Source of the DNA: Curtobacterium sp. MCSS17_007
GTDB taxonomy: Bacteria > Actinomycetota > Actinomycetes > Actinomycetales > Microbacteriaceae
Reading direction: 5' to 3'
Assembly (NCBI RefSeq): GCF_003234175.2
Contig: NZ_CP126257.1
Location: 1,798,001 to 1,862,000 of the forward strand
Length of the DNA: 64,000 bases
This document shows, piece by piece, positions 54,590-64,000 of the stretch; the stretch's first letter is position 1, and the number at the start of each line of letters is the position of its first letter. Under the pieces are notes generated by a model. It saw only the letters and a program-made list of their open reading frames with translations, was not told the DNA's origin and did no database searches. Position numbers and translations under genes: made by a program.

Positions 54590-55999
54590 TCAGCGGCCGG
54601 AGCCGGCGACGACCCCCGTGTCGCGGGCGAGCAGGTCGTCGATCGACTCGCCACGGACGAGGATACGGGCTGCGCCGTCCGCGACCGCGACGACCGGCGG
54701 GCGTCCGACGTGGTTGTAGTTGCTGGCGAGCGACCAGCAGTACGCACCGGTGGCGGCGACGGCGAGCAGGTCACCCCGGTGCACGTCACCCGGCAGGTAG
54801 TCGTCGTTGACCACGATGTCGCCCGACTCACAGTGCTTGCCGACGACCCGGGTGAGCACCGCCGGGGCGTCGGAGGCCCGGGCGAGCCGCGCCGTGTAGT
54901 CGGCTCCGTACAGGGCCGGCCGCGGGTTGTCGCTCATGCCGCCGTCGACCGAGACGTACGTCCGGGTCGCCGACGAGCCGTCGTCGGTCTCGAGCGTCAC
55001 GGGCTTGATCGTGCCCACCCGGTAGAGCGTCAGCCCGGCGGGACCGACGATGTACCGGCCGGGCTCGACCGCGATCTCGGGGACCGGGATGCCGCGTTCT
55101 GCGCAGGCATCGGCCACGATCGTCGCGAGGGCGTCGGCGACGTCCTCCGGCGCGAACGCTTCGTCAGCCTCGGTGTAGTCGATGCCCCAGCCCCCGCCGA
55201 GGTTGAGCTCCGGCACCGGACCGGACGCCACGAGTTCCGCGTGCACGTCCATCAGGCGGCGGGCGGCCTCGCGGAAGCCGGACTCGTCGAAGATCTGCGA
55301 ACCGATGTGCGAGTGCAGCCCGACGAACGCGAGCGACGGCTCCGCGCGGACGGCGGCGGCGGCCTCGGCTGCTTCGGTGAGGGGGATGCCGAACTTCTGG
55401 TCCTCCCGCGCCGTGGCGAGGTACTCGTGGGTGGAGGCGTGCACGCCGCTGTTGATCCGGATGCGGACGCGCTGCACGGTGCCCGCGTCGGCGGCCGCAC
55501 GGGCGACGCGCCCGATCTCCTCGTGGCTGTCGAGGACGATCGTGCCGAGGCCCACCTCGACCGCCCGGGCGATCTCGGCGTCGGACTTGTCGTTGCCGTG
55601 GAACCCGAGGAGCGCGGGGTCCGCTCCCCCGGCCAGCGCCACCGCGAGCTCGCCCGCGGTGCACACGTCGATCCGCAGACCGGCCTCGGCCATCCACGCG
55701 GCGACCTGGGTCGTGAGGAACGCCTTCGCCGCGTAGTAGACGTGGGCGCGGGTGCCGATGCGTCCGAACGCCTCGGTGAATGCGGTGCGCACCCGCGCTG
55801 CGCGCGCCTGCACGTCGTGTTCGTCGACCACGTAGAGCGGCGAGCCGAACTGCGCGACGAGGTCGGACGCGGTGATCCCGCCGACGACCAGTTCGCCGTC
55901 GTCGGTGCGCGTCGCGGAGGCCGGCCAGATCCGCGCGGTCAGGGCGGACGCGTCGGCCGGGAACCGCAGCCGCGGCGGGGCAAGGGGGTTCGCGCTCAC
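54590..55999 (-). CDS. lysA: diaminopimelate decarboxylase
   Basis: 469 aa, last step of lysine synthesis from meso-DAP. The PLP Lys is in VYYAAKAFLTTQV; the phosphate loop is NLGGGWGIDYTE; EPGRYIVGPAG and SVDGGMSDNPRP complete the site, and CESGDI holds the active-site Cys from the partner subunit. GTG start has a TAGGAT box 8 nt upstream. Start of the lysA-hom-thrC-thrB run. Confidence 0.98.
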   Translation of the reverse strand: MSANPLAPPRLRFPADASALTARIWPASATRTDDGELVVGGITASDLVAQFGSPLYVVDEHDVQARAARVRTAFTEAFGRIGTRAHVYYAAKAFLTTQVAAWMAEAGLRIDVCTAGELAVALAGGADPALLGFHGNDKSDAEIARAVEVGLGTIVLDSHEEIGRVARAAADAGTVQRVRIRINSGVHASTHEYLATAREDQKFGIPLTEAAEAAAAVRAEPSLAFVGLHSHIGSQIFDESGFREAARRLMDVHAELVASGPVPELNLGGGWGIDYTEADEAFAPEDVADALATIVADACAERGIPVPEIAVEPGRYIVGPAGLTLYRVGTIKPVTLETDDGSSATRTYVSVDGGMSDNPRPALYGADYTARLARASDAPAVLTRVVGKHCESGDIVVNDDYLPGDVHRGDLLAVAATGAYCWSLASNYNHVGRPPVVAVADGAARILVRGESIDDLLARDTGVVAGSGR

Positions 56000-56007
56000 G
56001 GGACCCG

Positions 56008-56013
56008 ATCCTA
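56008..56013 (-). promoter_or_regulatory. -10 box of lysA
   Basis: Minus-strand TAGGAT, 8 nt before the GTG at 55999; leaderless spacing. Confidence 0.4.
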
Positions 56014-56074
56014 CCGAGCCCGGCCGACCCTCCCGTCCGGTGTTACGCCGACCGTCGGTCGGAGCTGCTGCCCC

Positions 56075-56830
56075 TCAGTCGCAGCGGCCGACCGTGCGGA
56101 GGCCCTGCTCGGTGAGCGGCAGCGACTCGGCGGTGACCCGCACGGTCGCCTGCTCCGCGCTGATGTCCAGCGACCGGATGCGCAGCTGCTCGGGCAGGAA
56201 CTGCGCGGTGCAGACCCGGACGGGGACGTTCGTGACCCCGGGGATCGAGTCGACCTCGAGGCCCAGGGCGGAGTTCGTGATCCGCACGTTCTGCGGGGTG
56301 ATCGTCACGCCACGGCCGTCGCGCTGCGTCACGACGTCGCCCGTCGCCGCGTACGTGATGTCGAAGCCGAGCACCGCGGTGGAGCCCGACAGCTCGACGC
56401 CGTCGTCCACGAGCCGCAGCCGGTCGAAGAGCGGGCTGTACTTCGCGAGGTCCTTGACACTCGAGGCGGCGAGCGTGACGTGACCGTCGACGTCGTGCAC
56501 GTCACCCACGCCGTCGACGGGGACGTCGTGCGCCGTGACGTCCGCTGCGAGCGGGATGCCGTCGACCGTCAGGCGGTCCGACGTGATGTCGACGCGGTCG
56601 AGCGTGCCGGCGAGCAGCTGCGGGATGACGATGCCGTCGGCGTGGGCGGTCACCTCGCCGGTGGCACCCTCGGGCAGGGACTGCTCGACCTGGTCGGCGA
56701 TGATCCGGTCCACGACGCCGCGGAGGACGAACTCCGCGACGACCACGAGTGCGGCGAGCACGAGCACCAGGACGACGAGGACGACGGGCCAGCGACGGCG
56801 CTTCCGGGTGGGCTCGGTGGCTGCGGACAT
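56075..56830 (-). CDS. DUF2993 membrane-anchored protein
   Basis: 251 aa. A basic N-terminus (TRKRRRW) and one membrane helix (VVLVVLVLVLAALVVVAEFVL) are followed by an extracellular LmeA-like DUF2993 domain (DRIIADQVEQSLP; VDGIPLAADVTAHDVPVDGVGD-type strands). LmeA in mycobacteria affects lipoglycan mannan length; function here is unknown. ATG at 56828-56830 with GGGAG close upstream. It lies between argS and lysA, following a 442-bp repeat-rich gap. Confidence 0.85.
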   Translation of the reverse strand: MSAATEPTRKRRRWPVVLVVLVLVLAALVVVAEFVLRGVVDRIIADQVEQSLPEGATGEVTAHADGIVIPQLLAGTLDRVDITSDRLTVDGIPLAADVTAHDVPVDGVGDVHDVDGHVTLAASSVKDLAKYSPLFDRLRLVDDGVELSGSTAVLGFDITYAATGDVVTQRDGRGVTITPQNVRITNSALGLEVDSIPGVTNVPVRVCTAQFLPEQLRIRSLDISAEQATVRVTAESLPLTEQGLRTVGRCD

Positions 56831-56871
56831 GACTCCCACCCTGCCAGGCTCCCCCGGCAGCCCGCCTGGGA

Positions 56872-56925
56872 GGCGCGGTTGCGCCCGGTCGGCGCGACGG
56901 CGCGGTTGCGCCCGGTCGGCGCGAC
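56872..56925. repeat. 27-bp tandem repeat, two full copies
   Basis: Units at 56872-56898 and 56899-56925 are identical, with a partial third. The sequence begins with the GGCGCGG portion of the REP-like arm. Confidence 0.85.
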
Positions 56926-56978
56926 GGCGCGGACGCGCGCGTGCGCCGGATGGGCGTGGGGCGCAACCGTCTTCGGCC

Positions 56979-57012
56979 GGGAGGCGCGTGGCGGGGCCGC
57001 CCTGCGCCTCCC
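56979..57012. terminator. nested REP-like hairpin downstream of argS
   Basis: Outer 9-bp arms GGGAGGCGC (56979-56987) and GCGCCTCCC (57004-57012) enclose a GGCGG/CCGCC inner stem. Same arm as the hairpins at 7449, 9304 and 59589. Confidence 0.55.
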
Positions 57013-57127
57013 GTCCGCCCGTTCCTTCCCATGACCGTCGCGATGGTCGGTGGTTTCGGGCGTACCTGGTGCTCCGGAACCCCCCCCGGTACGCTCGGAA
57101 CCGCCTGGTACGCCCGGAACAGCCCGG

Positions 57128-57158
<31 letters not shown>

Positions 57159-57272
57159 ACCAGCGGGACCGCCCGCGGCTCCACCGGCGAGGCGTGCTCG
57201 CGCCGCGCCGGGCGCCGGCACGGCAGCGCCGCGCCGGGCGCCGGCGAGGCAGCGCAGCCCAGGGCGACGGCG

Positions 57273-58943
57273 CTACATGCGCTCGGGCGCGCTCACCCCG
57301 AGGAGGCCGAGACCGTTGCGGACGACCTGGCCGGTCGCGTCGTTCAGCCAGAGGCGCGTGCGGTGCAGGTCCGTCACGGCCTCGTCGCCGAGCGGCGTCA
57401 CGCGGCAGGCGTCGTACCAGCGGTGGTAGAGCCCGGCGAGCTGCTCGATGTACCGCGCGATGCGGTGCGGCTCACGGAGCTCGGCCGCCTGCCGCACGAC
57501 GCGCGGGTACTCGGCGAGGGCCCCCAGCAGGGCGCCCTCGGTCTCGTGGGTGAGCAGCGACGCGTCGAACGCCGAACGGTCGACCCCGGCCGAGGCGGCG
57601 TTGCGGGCGACGGACTGCGTGCGGGCGTGGGCGTACTGCACGTAGAAGACCGGGTTGTCGTTGGTCCGCTTCGTCAGCAGGTCGAGGTCGATGTCGATCG
57701 ACGTGTCGCTCGCGAACCGCACGAGCGCGTAGCGGCCGGCATCGACACCCACGGCGTCGACGAGGTCCTCCATCGACACGATCGTGCCGTTGCGCTTCGA
57801 CATGCGGAACGGCTGGCCGTCCTTGAGCAGGTTCACCATCTGGCCGATGAGGATCTCGAGGTTCTTGCCCGGCTCGTCGCCGAACGCGGCGCACATGGCC
57901 ATCATCCGACCGACGTAGCCGTGGTGGTCCGCACCGAGCATGATGAGGTTCCGCTCGAACCCGCGCTCGCGCTTGTCGAGGTAGTACGCCAGGTCGCCCG
58001 CGATGTACGCCGGCTGCCCGTCGGACTTGATCACGACACGGTCGCGGTCGTCGCCGAAGTCGGTCGTGCGGAGCCAGAGCGCACCGTCGGCCTCGTACAT
58101 CTTACCGAGGGACTGCAGCCGCTCGATGGCACGCTCGACGGCCTTCGACTCGTGCAACGAGTTCTCGTGGAAGTACACGTCGAAGTCGACCCCGAAGTCG
58201 TGCAGCGACGACTTGATGTCGGCGAACATGAACTCGACGCCCTCGCGGCGGAAGACTTCCTGCGCCTCGTCGCGCGGCAGGTCACGGACGTCGGTGCCCG
58301 CGGGCAGGGTCGCGATGACGCGCGCCGCGATCTCGCCGATGTACGCACCGCCGTAGCCGTCGTCCGGCGTGGGCTCCCCCAGCGCCGAGGCGACGAGCGA
58401 CCGGGCGAAGCGGTCGATCTGCGCGCCGTGGTCGTTGAAGTAGTACTCGCGCGTGACGAGGCCGCCCTGCGCCTCGAACACGCGGGCGAGCGAGTCACCG
58501 ACGGCAGCCCAGCGGACGCCGCCCATGTGGATCGGGCCGGTCGGGTTGGCGGAGACGAACTCGAGGTCGATCGACACGCCCTCGTACAGGTCACCGTGCC
58601 CGAACGCGACCCCCTGGTCGACGATCGTGCGGGCGATCTCGCCGGCTGCGGCGGCCTCGAGCGTGATGTTGATGAAGCCGGGACCGGCGACGTCGACCGA
58701 GGCGACACCGTCGAGCTCGGTCAGCTCGCCGGCTATCTCGGTCGCGAGCTCGCGCGGGTTCGTGCCGAGGCGCTTCGCGAGCTGCATCGCCGCGTTCGAC
58801 GCCCAGTCGCCGTGCGCACGGTTCTTCGGCCGCTCGAGGGCCACGTGGGACTCCCCGATCGTCACGGTGTCGGACGCGCCTCGTCGCTCGACGATCCCGG
58901 TCAGGATCGACAGGTACGCGGCGGAGAGTTCGGCAGGAGTCAC
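57273..58943 (-). CDS. argS: arginyl-tRNA synthetase
   Basis: 556 aa class I synthetase. The HIGH motif is HMGG in [15 protein letters not shown]; the KMSKS-type loop is [10 protein letters not shown]-terminal tRNA-recognition domain and C-terminal helical domain ending [16 protein letters not shown] are complete. GTG start with a TAGACT box 8 nt upstream. Head of the argS-lysA-hom-thrC-thrB-rho order known from Mycobacterium. A tRNA-Arg gene lies nearby on the other strand. Confidence 0.98.
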
Positions 58944-59710: not shown

Positions 59711-59782
59711 GCCCCCATAGCTCAGGGGATAGAGCACTGCCCTCCGGAGGCAGGGGCGGAGGTTCGAATCCTCCTGGGGGCA
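59711..59782 (+). tRNA. tRNA-Arg (anticodon CCG)
   Basis: Full cloverleaf: acceptor stem GCCCCCA/TGGGGGC with discriminator A, D-arm GCTC/GAGC, anticodon stem CTGCC/GGCAG around loop CTCCGGA (anticodon CCG, reading CGG), T-arm GGAGG-TTCGAAT-CCTCC. The 3' CCA is not encoded. Followed by 66-bp tandem repeats and no integrase. Confidence 0.97.
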
Positions 59783-59828
59783 CAAGAAACTCCCGCGCAG
59801 GCGGACGTTCTCGCTTCGCTCGATCGGC

Positions 59829-60059
59829 CGCGCGCGAAGTCGCCTGCGGCGACCGTCCCCCGTCGTTGCGACCGCCACGTCCGGCTCGGTCCGCGTCGCG
59901 CGAAGTCGGCTGCGGCGACCGTCCCCCGTCGTTGCGACCGCCACGTCAGGCTCGGTCCGCGTCGCGCGAAGTCGCCTGCGGCGACCGTCCCCCGTCGTTG
60001 CGACCGCCACGTCCGGCTCGGTCCACGTCGCGCGGGGTCGCCTGCGGCCACCGTCCCCG
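59829..60059. repeat. 66-bp tandem repeat, about 3.5 copies
   Basis: The GAAG of each unit falls at 59836, 59902 and 59968, with the degenerate fourth at 60034, an exact 66-bp period. Each unit contains the inverted repeat GTCGCCTGCGGCGAC or a one-base variant. Units differ by only a few bases; the fourth is most diverged. Confidence 0.92.
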
Positions 60060-60146: not shown

Positions 60147-63100
60147 ATGAGCACCGGCACCACGGACCTCCAGGCCCCCCTCGCCCGCGGCCAGTACGCA
60201 CCCGCCCCGCGCACCCTCCTCGACGTCCTCGAGGCGACCGCGCGCGCCACGCCCGACGCCCTCGCGCTCGAGGACCCGGCTGGCACGATCGACTACGCGA
60301 CGCTGCTGCGGCTCGTCCGGACGCAGGCCGACGACCTCGCCACGCGCGGCGTCCGGCGCGGCGACCGGGTCGGCGTGCGCATCCCGTCGGGCGGGCGCGA
60401 CCTGTACCTGTCGATCCTCGCGGTCCTCGCGGCGGGTGCCGCCTACGTGCCGGTCGACGCGGACGACCCGGAGGAACGCGCCGCCCTGGTCTTCGGCGAG
60501 GCCGGGGTCGTCGGCGTGGTCGGGGCCGGCGGCGTCCTGCGCACGCGCGGGGACCCGGACGCCGAGCCCGCTCCCGTCGTCGCCCCGGGCGCCCGTGCCG
60601 GGACGCCGAGGGTCGAGGACGACGCCTGGGTGATCTTCACGTCCGGGTCCACGGGCGTGCCCAAGGGCGTCGCGGTGACACACCGCTCCGCAGCTGCCTT
60701 CGTCGACGCCGAGGCACGGATGTTCCTGCAGGACGCGCCGATCGGCCCCGGCGACCGCGTGCTCGCCGGCCTGAGCGTCGCGTTCGACGCCTCGTGCGAG
60801 GAGATGTGGCTGGCCTGGGGCCACGGCGCGTGCCTGGTGCCCGCCCCGCGGTCCCTCGTCCGCACCGGGGTCGACCTCGGCCCCTGGCTCATCGCGCACA
60901 CGATCACCGTCGTGTCCACCGTGCCGACCCTCGCGGCACTGTGGCCCGACGACGCCCTCGAGCAGGTCCGGCTCGTGATCTTCGGCGGCGAAGCGTGCCC
61001 ACCCGAACTGGCCGCCCGCATCGCGTCCCGCGACCGGGAGCTCTGGAACACCTACGGTCCGACCGAGGCGACCGTCGTCGCGTGCGGCGCCCTGATGGAC
61101 GGCGGCCAGCCGGTGCGGATCGGCCTGCCGCTCGACGGGTGGGACCTGGCGGTCGTCGACGAGCAGGGCCGGCGGGTCGCCCCTGGCGGGGTGGGCGAGC
61201 TCGTCATCGGCGGGGTCGGCCTCGGCCGGTACCTCGACCCGGCGAAGGACGCCGAGAAGTACGCGCCCTTCCCGGAGCTCGGCTGGGACCGGGCGTACCG
61301 GAGCGGCGACCTCGTCCGCTACGAGCCCGAGGGGCTCGTCTTCCAGGGCCGCGCGGACGACCAGGTGAAGCTCGGCGGTCGCCGGATCGAGCTCGGGGAG
61401 GTCGACGCCGCACTGCAGGGCCTCGAGGACGTCGCCGGCGGGGCGGCCGTCGTGCAGCGCACCCCGGCCGGCAACCAGGTGCTGGTCGGCTACGTCGCTC
61501 CCGTGGCCGGCGCGACGATCGACACGGGCGCGGCGAACGCCCGCCTGCGCGAGGAGCTGCCCGCCGCCCTCGTGCCGCTCCTCGCGGTGGTCGACGCCCT
61601 GCCCACCAGGACGTCCGGCAAGGTCGACCGCGCCGCACTGCCGTGGCCGCTGCCCGGCGCCACCGACGCCGCGCTGCTCCCCGACACCGTGGCGTGGATC
61701 GCCGAGCGCTGGTCGGCGATCCTCGGGGTCCCGGTGACGAGCGTCGACGACGACTTCTTCGCCCACGGCGGCGGGTCGTTGACCGCCGCACAGCTCGTCT
61801 CCGCGATCCGCGAGCGCTTCCCGGTGACGACCGTCGCGGACGTCTACGACCACCCGCGCATCGGTGCCCTCGCCGCTGCCCTGGACGACGCCGGCCCCGC
61901 CGCTGCCGCGCGCCGTCCGGTGCGTCCGGTCGCGCCGACGACCGGGCTCCTGCTCACCCTGCTCGGCCTGCCGGTCCAGGTGCTCCGCGGCCTCCGGGTG
62001 CTGACGTGGACGGCACTCGTCGGGGCGGTCCTGCACGCGACCACGCTGCCCGTCGTCCCGGTCCTGCCCTGGTGGGCACTCGTCGTCGCGCTCCTGCTGT
62101 TCGTCACCCCGATCGGCAAGATGACGGTGACCGTCGTGCTCGCACGACTCCTGCTCGTCGGGGTCCGTCCGGGTGACCACCCCCGCGGCGGCTCGGTGCA
62201 CGTGCGCGTCTGGCTCGCCGAACGCATCGCCGAGGCCGTCGACGGCCCCTCGACCGCCGGCGCCCCGTGGATCAGCTACTACGCGCGAGCGCTCGGAGCC
62301 CGCGTCGGCCGCGACGTCGACCTGCACACGCTGCCGCCGGTCACCGGCATGCTCACCGTCGGCAAGCGGGCATCGATCGAACCCGAGGTCGACCTCGCCG
62401 GGCACTGGGTCGACGGCGACCTGTTCCGGCTCGGGCACGTGCGGGTGGACGCGGACGCGGTGGTGCACAGCCGCTCGACCCTGCTGCCAGGGGCGCACGT
62501 CGGCGAGGGCGCCGAGGTCGAGGCCGGCTCCGCGGTGACCGGCCGGGTCCCCGCCGGGGAGCGCTGGGCGGGCTCGCCGGCGGAGCGCGTCGGGTCGGCC
62601 CGGCACGGACGGGAGGCACGTCCCCCTGCCCGACGCCGGTGGCTCGCCGCGTACGGGGTCGGCTCCGTCGTCGTGGCGGGTCTGCCCGTCGCGGGCGTCG
62701 CCGCCGGACTCGCGGTCGTGGTCGCGCTGGTCGGTCCGGCCGGCTCGATCGGCGCCGCGGTGCTCCGCGGGCTCGCCGCCGTCCCCGTCGCCACCCTCGT
62801 CGCGGGGCTCGTGTACGCCGTCCTCGTGGTCGCCGCCGTCCGGCTGCTGGCCCTCGGGCTCCGCGAGGGACGTCACCCGGTACGCTCCCGGTCCGGTTGG
62901 CAGGCCTGGTGCACCGAGCGGGTGCTCGACGCCGCCCGGACCCTGCTCTTCCCGCTGTACGCGTCGCTCGTCACCCCGGTGTGGCTGCGCGTCCTGGGTG
63001 CTCGCGTCGGTCGGGACACCGAGATCTCCACGGTGCTGCTCATCCCCTCGCTCACCCAGATCGCCTCCGGCGCCTTCCTGGCGGACGACACCATGGTCGC

Positions 63101-64000
63101 GACGTACGAGCTGGGCGGCGGCTACGTGCGCATCGGCCGGTCGAAGGTCGGTCGGCGGGCGTTCCTCGGCAACTCCGGCATGACCGGGGCCGGGCGGTCG
63201 GTCCCTCGCGAGGCCCTGGTCGCCGTCCTCTCCGCCGTGCCGAAGAAGGCCAAGCGCGGGTCGTCCTGGCTGGGATCGCCGCCGGTCCGGCTGCGCCGTG
63301 CCGCCGCCGAGTTCGACGAGGAGCGCACCTTCCGACCGCCGCGCCGGCTCAAGGTCGCCCGCGCGTGCTGGGAGCTGCTCCGCCTGGTCGCGCCGATGCT
63401 GTCCGGCGCGATCGCCCTCGGGGTCGCCGGGAGCCTGCTGGCACTGTGGTCCGCCGTCGGCATCGGTTGGACCGTGCTCCTCGCCGGTCCCGTGCTCATC
63501 GCCGCGGGAGCCGTTGCCGCCGCCGTCTCCACGGCCGCCAAGTGGGTCTTCGTCGGCCGGATCGACGCACGCGAGCACCCGCTCTGGTCGTCCTTCGTGT
63601 GGCGCAACGAGGTGCAGGACACCTTCGTCGAGACCGTGGCCCGGCCGTGGTTCGCAGAGCAGGCGACGGGCACGCCGGCGTTGGCCACGTGGCTCCGCAG
63701 CCTCGGCGCGGGCATCGGCCGCGGCACCTGGATCGAGACGTACTGGCTGCCGGAGGCGGACCTCGTGTCCATCGGCGACGGCGCGTCGGTCGCCCGCGGG
63801 ACCGTGGTGCAGACGCACCTGTTCCACGACCGGGTGATGCAGCTCGACACCGTCCGGCTCGAGGACGGCGCCACCCTCGGCCCGCACAGCGTCGCCCTGC
63901 CCGCGTCGGGGATCGGTGCCGGCGCGACCGTGGGGCCGTCGTCGCTGGTGATGCGCGGCGAGCAGGTGCCCGGCGGGACCCAGTGGGCGGGCAACCCGAT
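60147..64000 (+). CDS. Pls/PosA-family single-module non-ribosomal peptide synthetase (runs off window)
   Basis: 1284 codons visible, no stop. An adenylation domain (about 1-500) has IFTSGSTGVPKG, NTYGPTE, and Lys492 in RTSGKVDR. A carrier domain has Ser544 in FAHGGGSLT. Membrane helices at about 592-670 lead to a left-handed beta-helix (hexapeptide) segment about 700-815, two more membrane blocks (about 830-900 and 1070-1140) and further hexapeptide-like segments (LGARVGRD, LGAGIGRG). This A-T-membrane-repeat layout is that of Pls-type enzymes, which make cationic homopolymers such as epsilon-poly-lysine, and of uncharacterised relatives. Specificity-pocket positions read D214, A215, E218, S257, I278, G280, T302, V310, V311, K492, close to a lysine signature. 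Confidence 0.9.
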   Translation, partial: MSTGTTDLQAPLARGQYAPAPRTLLDVLEATARATPDALALEDPAGTIDYATLLRLVRTQADDLATRGVRRGDRVGVRIPSGGRDLYLSILAVLAAGAAYVPVDADDPEERAALVFGEAGVVGVVGAGGVLRTRGDPDAEPAPVVAPGARAGTPRVEDDAWVIFTSGSTGVPKGVAVTHRSAAAFVDAEARMFLQDAPIGPGDRVLAGLSVAFDASCEEMWLAWGHGACLVPAPRSLVRTGVDLGPWLIAHTITVVSTVPTLAALWPDDALEQVRLVIFGGEACPPELAARIASRDRELWNTYGPTEATVVACGALMDGGQPVRIGLPLDGWDLAVVDEQGRRVAPGGVGELVIGGVGLGRYLDPAKDAEKYAPFPELGWDRAYRSGDLVRYEPEGLVFQGRADDQVKLGGRRIELGEVDAALQGLEDVAGGAAVVQRTPAGNQVLVGYVAPVAGATIDTGAANARLREELPAALVPLLAVVDALPTRTSGKVDRAALPWPLPGATDAALLPDTVAWIAERWSAILGVPVTSVDDDFFAHGGGSLTAAQLVSAIRERFPVTTVADVYDHPRIGALAAALDDAGPAAAARRPVRPVAPTTGLLLTLLGLPVQVLRGLRVLTWTALVGAVLHATTLPVVPVLPWWALVVALLLFVTPIGKMTVTVVLARLLLVGVRPGDHPRGGSVHVRVWLAERIAEAVDGPSTAGAPWISYYARALGARVGRDVDLHTLPPVTGMLTVGKRASIEPEVDLAGHWVDGDLFRLGHVRVDADAVVHSRSTLLPGAHVGEGAEVEAGSAVTGRVPAGERWAGSPAERVGSARHGREARPPARRRWLAAYGVGSVVVAGLPVAGVAAGLAVVVALVGPAGSIGAAVLRGLAAVPVATLVAGLVYAVLVVAAVRLLALGLREGRHPVRSRSGWQAWCTERVLDAARTLLFPLYASLVTPVWLRVLGARVGRDTEISTVLLIPSLTQIASGAFLADDTMVATYELGGGYVRIGRSKVGRRAFLGNSGMTGAGRSVPREALVAVLSAVPKKAKRGSSWLGSPPVRLRRAAAEFDEERTFRPPRRLKVARACWELLRLVAPMLSGAIALGVAGSLLALWSAVGIGWTVLLAGPVLIAAGAVAAAVSTAAKWVFVGRIDAREHPLWSSFVWRNEVQDTFVETVARPWFAEQATGTPALATWLRSLGAGIGRGTWIETYWLPEADLVSIGDGASVARGTVVQTHLFHDRVMQLDTVRLEDGATLGPHSVALPASGIGAGATVGPSSLVMRGEQVPGGTQWAGNP

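Follow-up and report, generated by a model that had tools for sequence, protein, structure and literature searches.

A putative epsilon-poly-L-lysine synthetase gene of Curtobacterium sp. MCSS17_007 and its overlapping M1 peptidase gene

Epsilon-poly-L-lysine synthetases (Pls) have been described in Streptomyces albulus and in the cheese bacterium Corynebacterium variabile, and expression of the pls gene of the latter in S. coelicolor yielded epsilon-polylysine of 26-35 residues (PMC8117764; papers are cited here by accession). Pls homologues have also been listed in Microbacterium and other coryneforms, with the lysine substrate deduced there from pocket and tree (PMC8117764), and epsilon-polylysine clusters have been reported in Microbacterium and Agrococcus and compared with a Leifsonia cluster, all of these genera belonging, like Curtobacterium, to the Microbacteriaceae (PMC12067966). 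Here we analyze a Pls-type gene in a stretch of 64,000 nucleotides from Curtobacterium sp. MCSS17_007 (single 3.31-Mb contig NZ_CP126257.1, positions 1,798,001 to 1,862,000, forward strand; hereafter the window), which extends a known and useful antimicrobial-polymer system to a plant-associated actinobacterium. A preliminary description of the window had supposed that a basic homopolymer was unreported for this lineage, which is refuted by the two papers above and by the Pls/PosA names that NCBI already gives to Curtobacterium proteins; no paper on a polylysine product from Curtobacterium itself was found in the literature searched.

The gene very probably encodes a Pls, and the polymer, judged from the sequence, would be epsilon-poly-L-lysine. 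This identification is based on the score against the Pls/PosA family profile, the similarity to a solved Pls structure, the adenylation pocket, the pairing with an M1 peptidase gene, the place in the tree, a phosphopantetheinyl transferase gene nearby and the model of the C-terminal half.

Domain layout and adenylation pocket

The gene starts with ATG at position 60147 and stops, in its own genome, at the equivalent of window position 64094, which gives a protein of 1315 residues whose C-terminus lies beyond the window, as had been noted. The features of the layout are as follows.

60147..64000, + strand: pls-type gene, N-terminal 1284 of 1315 residues inside the window (open reading frame analysis, TIGR02353)
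60228..61640, + strand: adenylation domain, residues 28-498 (PF00501, TIGR01733, similarity to PDB 7WEW)
61695..61883, + strand: carrier (thiolation) domain, residues 517-579 (PF00550)
61776-61778, + strand: phosphopantetheine Ser544 within GGGSL (motif position)
61947..63998, + strand: membrane and polymerisation region, residues 601-1284 (model, hydropathy, TIGR02353)

Within the 1284 in-window residues, Pfam detected AMP-binding (28-359), PP-binding (517-579) and Hexapep (765-799) and nothing else, and thus no condensation or thioesterase domain. The NCBIfam profile TIGR02353 (Pls/PosA terminal domain), whose cut-off is 423.1 bits, matched residues 604-1284 at 697.5. Together with the AlphaFold2 model below, these matches bear out the earlier proposal of a Pls-like adenylation-thiolation-membrane-hexapeptide layout with a single module and no thioesterase. 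A chance match is excluded because of the profile scores and because relatives 76-95% identical are present in other Curtobacterium genomes. Two further large proteins with AMP-binding domains encoded in this genome (L007/L011 and L008/L012) fall outside the Pls family, and the second match to TIGR02353 in the genome, located elsewhere, reaches only 23.4 bits.

An alignment of 143 rows gave the pocket D-A-E-S-I-G-T-V-V-K, contributed by D214, A215, E218, S257, I278, G280, T302, V310, V311 and K492.

60786..61079, + strand: nine of the ten pocket residues, D214-V311 (D-A-E-S-I-G-T-V-V; alignment)
61620-61622, + strand: tenth pocket residue, K492 (alignment)

A reading at fixed offsets, DAESIGNTVK, was rejected, since those offsets presuppose one residue more ahead of the last motif than the query has. 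The aligned pocket is the one proposed in the preliminary description, where it had been compared with bacitracin synthetase; an annotated Pls is the better comparison. The same ten letters occur in the Pls of Streptomyces sp. NBC_01454, which is named epsilon-poly-L-lysine synthase by record annotation, and also in 7WEW, where the alignment was read by eye. The adenylation domain of 7WEW, an epsilon-poly-L-lysine synthase, is the closest solved structure to that of the query (637.2-639.9 bits), followed by linear gramicidin synthase (397.1). These observations point to lysine as the substrate: the adenylation domain would activate L-lysine with ATP and load it onto Ser544 of a carrier domain that would be armed by the product of the phosphopantetheinyl transferase gene (PF01648) found about 2.5 kb downstream.

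That the query instead builds its homopolymer from another diamino acid (ornithine, diaminobutyrate, diaminopropionate or beta-lysine), as other synthetases of the family do, is very improbable. All four substrates are used by family members (PMC10522769, PMC8117764), and the PosA pocket binds lysine even though the substrate of that enzyme is ornithine (PMC10522769). However, the pockets of these enzymes differ from that of the query: PosA has D-M-E-H-N-G-T-V-S-K and the beta-lysine enzyme D-G-E-S-I-S-V-V-N-K, and the second position, which has been tied to chain length, is Phe in the PDAP/PDAB enzymes, Met in PosA and Ala in Pls (PMC10522769), whereas the query carries Ala within the Pls code. 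In addition, the query has a neighbour of the pldII type, while the other three synthetases known to PMC8117764 are said there to lie in a different gene context.

The C-terminal half and a candidate catalytic centre

The AlphaFold2 model of residues 601-1284 (mean pLDDT 87.3, pTM 0.88) contains three units, C1, C2 and C3, each with long hydrophobic helices that lead into a left-handed beta-helix domain; the C-terminal domains left uncounted in the preliminary description are present. Hydropathy likewise delimits three hydrophobic blocks, at about 595-673, 833-907 and 1077-1136, every one of them long enough for two helices, which would make the six membrane helices of Pls, but the third is a single helical stretch of 56 residues in the model. 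The predicted architecture is therefore one of three tandem C domains with membrane segments between them, as in Pls. Fold matches to hexapeptide acetyltransferases lie mostly within C1. Among 52 sequence matches and the best 50 of 461 Foldseek rows, none was a solved structure of the C-terminal half of a Pls.

Conservation was assessed in 142 rows, all from Actinomycetota, from which the cut sequence L040 was dropped and in which the Streptomyces NBC_01454 protein is counted twice, once as L113. At a position common to the three beta-helix domains, C3 has His in 142/142 rows, the equivalent C2 position is Tyr in 134/142, and that of C1 is Tyr in 73/142, with His and Trp among the remainder. 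E1155, E1203, Q1222, H1224 and D1228 of C3 are invariant in all 142 rows, as are D980 and N1009 of C2 and R899 ahead of C2; C1 lacks any charged or amide residue that is invariant throughout, the nearest being R714 (141/142) and R776 (140/142). Residue 1227 follows the pocket, being His in 135 of the 136 lysine-code rows and Glu in all six others.

63810..63830, + strand: C3 motif Q1222-T-H1224-L-F-H-D1228, candidate catalytic centre (conservation in 142 rows)
63816-63818, + strand: His1224 codon (C3 motif)

In hexapeptide acetyltransferases, a histidine activates the acceptor to attack the pantetheine thioester. Since an invariant histidine at this position is confined to C3, the conservation pattern suggests one catalytic centre, which we propose to lie there. 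The C-terminal half would correspond to a trimeric left-handed beta-helix acyltransferase built as one chain, in which the lysyl-phosphopantetheine thioester takes the place of acetyl-CoA and C3 alone would hold the catalytic histidine, His1224, together with the invariant Glu1203 and Asp1228. Bound to the membrane, it would repeatedly link a lysine, through its carboxyl, to the side-chain amine of a second lysine. In the available passages of the literature searched, no catalytic residue of this kind is mentioned for Pls, and the C3 histidine signature may be a new detail. If true, it would provide a handle on how an enzyme lacking a condensation domain forms isopeptide bonds, a step for which no structure was at hand in the available text of PMC10522769.

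The partner peptidase and polymer formation

The gene that follows starts with GTG at -4 relative to the pls end, a 4-nt overlap, and encodes a 451-residue M1 metallopeptidase (PF01433 and PF17900) with an intact HEXXH-X18-E motif. An M1 gene also overlaps the pls end in the Streptomyces NBC_01454 record, and in S. albulus pldII is translationally coupled to pls (PMC9223678). The generality of the pairing was examined in 141 loci, comprising 80 kept of 278 relatives from genome contigs, one plasmid record and 60 hand-picked from profile-survey lists; these loci are mutually related and most were chosen for nearness to the query, so that the counts are not independent. The full lysine code was found in 134/141 loci (DAESIGTVVK in 130, DAESVGTVVK in 4), and 133 of these 134 have an M1 gene after pls on the same strand, as does L040, whose code is cut. 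L124 (2183-6250) is the sole lysine-code synthetase of the set for which no M1 gene was detected in the stretch fetched. No M1 partner was present at the three loci with the pocket DFECLSVVTK or at the three without an adenylation domain.

For scoring of the peptidases, 141 rows were used (the query plus 140 loci, without L040), and the motif search found 128 M1 genes. HEXXH-X18-E is present in 128/128, and the chosen start overlaps or abuts the pls end in 98/128. A further 13 loci went unscored because the motif search was empty, six of them (L023, L043, L140, L141, L145 and L173) with a BLAST match to M1. No export signal, in the form of a hydrophobic N-terminal stretch, was detected in 127/128 partners, including the query and L114-L117, which are taken to be Streptomyces from their place in the tree; the query peaks at -0.07 against a cut of 1.5. 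The only partner with such a stretch, preceded by twin arginines, is that of Streptomyces NBC_01454. This test is a simple hydropathy cut applied to start codons picked by position, and its result is a lead. The missing export signal, in contrast to PldII of S. albulus, which is reported to lie on the external side of the membrane (PMC9223678), may be a new detail.

The overlapping peptidase probably protects the cell from its own polymer by shortening it or breaking it down. Combining both side results, we put forward a tentative and rather doubtful proposal: the polymerising half of Pls enzymes would be a fused trimeric beta-helix acyltransferase in which two of three sites have decayed, so that all isopeptide bonds are made at C3 (Q-x-H1224-x-x-x-D1228 and E1203), and the coupled M1 peptidase would be intracellular in Curtobacterium and most actinobacterial pairs examined, so that the polymer, besides being secreted, is shortened or recycled within the cytoplasm. 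A cytoplasmic peptidase, if confirmed, may help to explain the absence of polymer in cultures of coryneform hosts.

That absence also bears on whether the enzyme makes a polymer in its own host at all. No polymer was obtained from C. variabile or from C. glutamicum carrying its gene, where the protein was nevertheless detected (PMC8117764), and seven of 66 Curtobacterium genomes (two of the seven only 65% and 73% complete) have no TIGR02353 match above the cut-off, so that the function seems dispensable. Lysine might accordingly be activated without a long polymer being formed, whether because the gene is silent, because only short oligomers arise or because lysine is added to another acceptor. 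We regard this as very unlikely, as every residue invariant in the 142 rows is retained in the C-terminal half of the query, and as polymer was indeed made in S. coelicolor from the C. variabile gene (PMC8117764). An epsilon-poly-L-lysine synthetase remains the preferred reading.

Distribution, upstream region and comparison with known systems

TIGR02353 matched above the cut-off in 59/66 Curtobacterium genomes, in 117/299 genomes drawn from the Microbacteriaceae (with matches in 41/85 genera) and in 20/346 drawn from the phylum. A protein search with the C-terminal half gave 7995 scored candidates, 6390 of them reaching E 0.001, and the Pls/PosA family name is already attached to many of the 120 proteins listed, Curtobacterium being among those named by NCBI. 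The closest named locus is that of Curtobacterium sp. MCSS17_008, with 95% identity across residues 1-1311. Phylogenetic analysis of 54 rows with FastTree groups the query first with Curtobacterium and then with Cryobacterium and Lacisediminihabitans, a placement that, as far as the sequences tell, is as expected for descent within the Microbacteriaceae. One branch of this tree, which carries long-branch warnings, separates the six rows whose pocket is different or absent, and the query is among the lysine-code rows.

Several relatives deserve mention in their own right. Three genomes of one other Microbacteriaceae genus hold both a lysine-code copy with an M1 gene (L134, L136 and L138) and a second Pls-type synthetase with the pocket DFECLSVVTK and no M1 partner (L135, 1-4929; L137, 2051-6337; L139, 2054-6520); the latter suggests a second, shorter diamino-acid polymer in the Microbacteriaceae. 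Three actinobacterial open reading frames of 824-919 residues (L118, 2183-4939; L123, 2156-4735; L133, 2138-4609) consist of a carrier domain and a Pls C-terminal half with no adenylation domain, and would need a separate loading protein. The Corynebacterium glutamicum control genome has a TIGR02353 match above the cut-off, though this species served as a Pls expression host in PMC8117764. Pls-type genes are also present in 19 plasmid-collection records, including those of Rhodococcus opacus, Arthrobacter, Kitasatospora, Streptomyces and the Mycobacterium avium group.

Directly upstream of pls, between it and a tRNA-Arg gene (59711-59783), lies one further feature.

59831..60058, + strand: tandem repeat, 3.5 copies of 66 bp (repeat analysis)

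No further genomic matches to the 66-bp repeat were found among the 40 scored of 69 first-look candidates; of 31 loci compared, at least L014, L015 and L022 have related but differing repeats in the equivalent place. The genes lysA and argS (window 54590-58943) are just upstream of pls on the opposite strand. Among the 31 Curtobacterium-like loci (L013-L040, L044, L047 and L066; L038 is titled Microbacteriaceae only), argS is upstream in 29 and lysA within the flank (<=6 kb) in 23, and in the other 49 of the 80 loci lysA was found in none and a distant, downstream argS in two. As this position is genus-specific and the strands are opposite, a link between pls and lysine synthesis drawn from this neighbourhood was rejected as evidence for the substrate.

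In the respects tested, the synthetase fits the published picture of Pls, and for a specialist the gene is an expected one; the C3 signature and the signal-less peptidase are the two side results that carry the interest. With the Pls of S. albulus and C. variabile it shares the order adenylation-thiolation-membrane-C1-C2-C3, the lack of condensation and thioesterase domains and the overlapping peptidase gene, and it is 54% identical to the Pls of Streptomyces NBC_01454, with the same pocket. Its partner resembles PldII of S. albulus as a metallopeptidase whose gene is coupled to pls, the M1 family being seen for the query and the NBC_01454 neighbour, but differs in having no visible export signal. 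PosA, the delta-poly-L-ornithine synthetase of Acinetobacter baumannii, belongs to the same family and has the same layout (PMC10522769), whereas its pocket is distinct and, in the passages available, it has no obvious co-transcribed neighbours. The layout is likewise common to the PDAP/PDAB synthetases (PMC8117764), to which the relatives with a Phe-type pocket in the Microbacteriaceae (L135, L137 and L139) may be compared, although the Phe at the second pocket position and the gene context set these enzymes apart from the query. Finally, the beta-helix fold, matched mostly in C1, is that of the hexapeptide galactoside and serine acetyltransferases; in contrast to these, the query comprises three unequal copies in one membrane-bound chain, and its donor would be an aminoacyl carrier protein.

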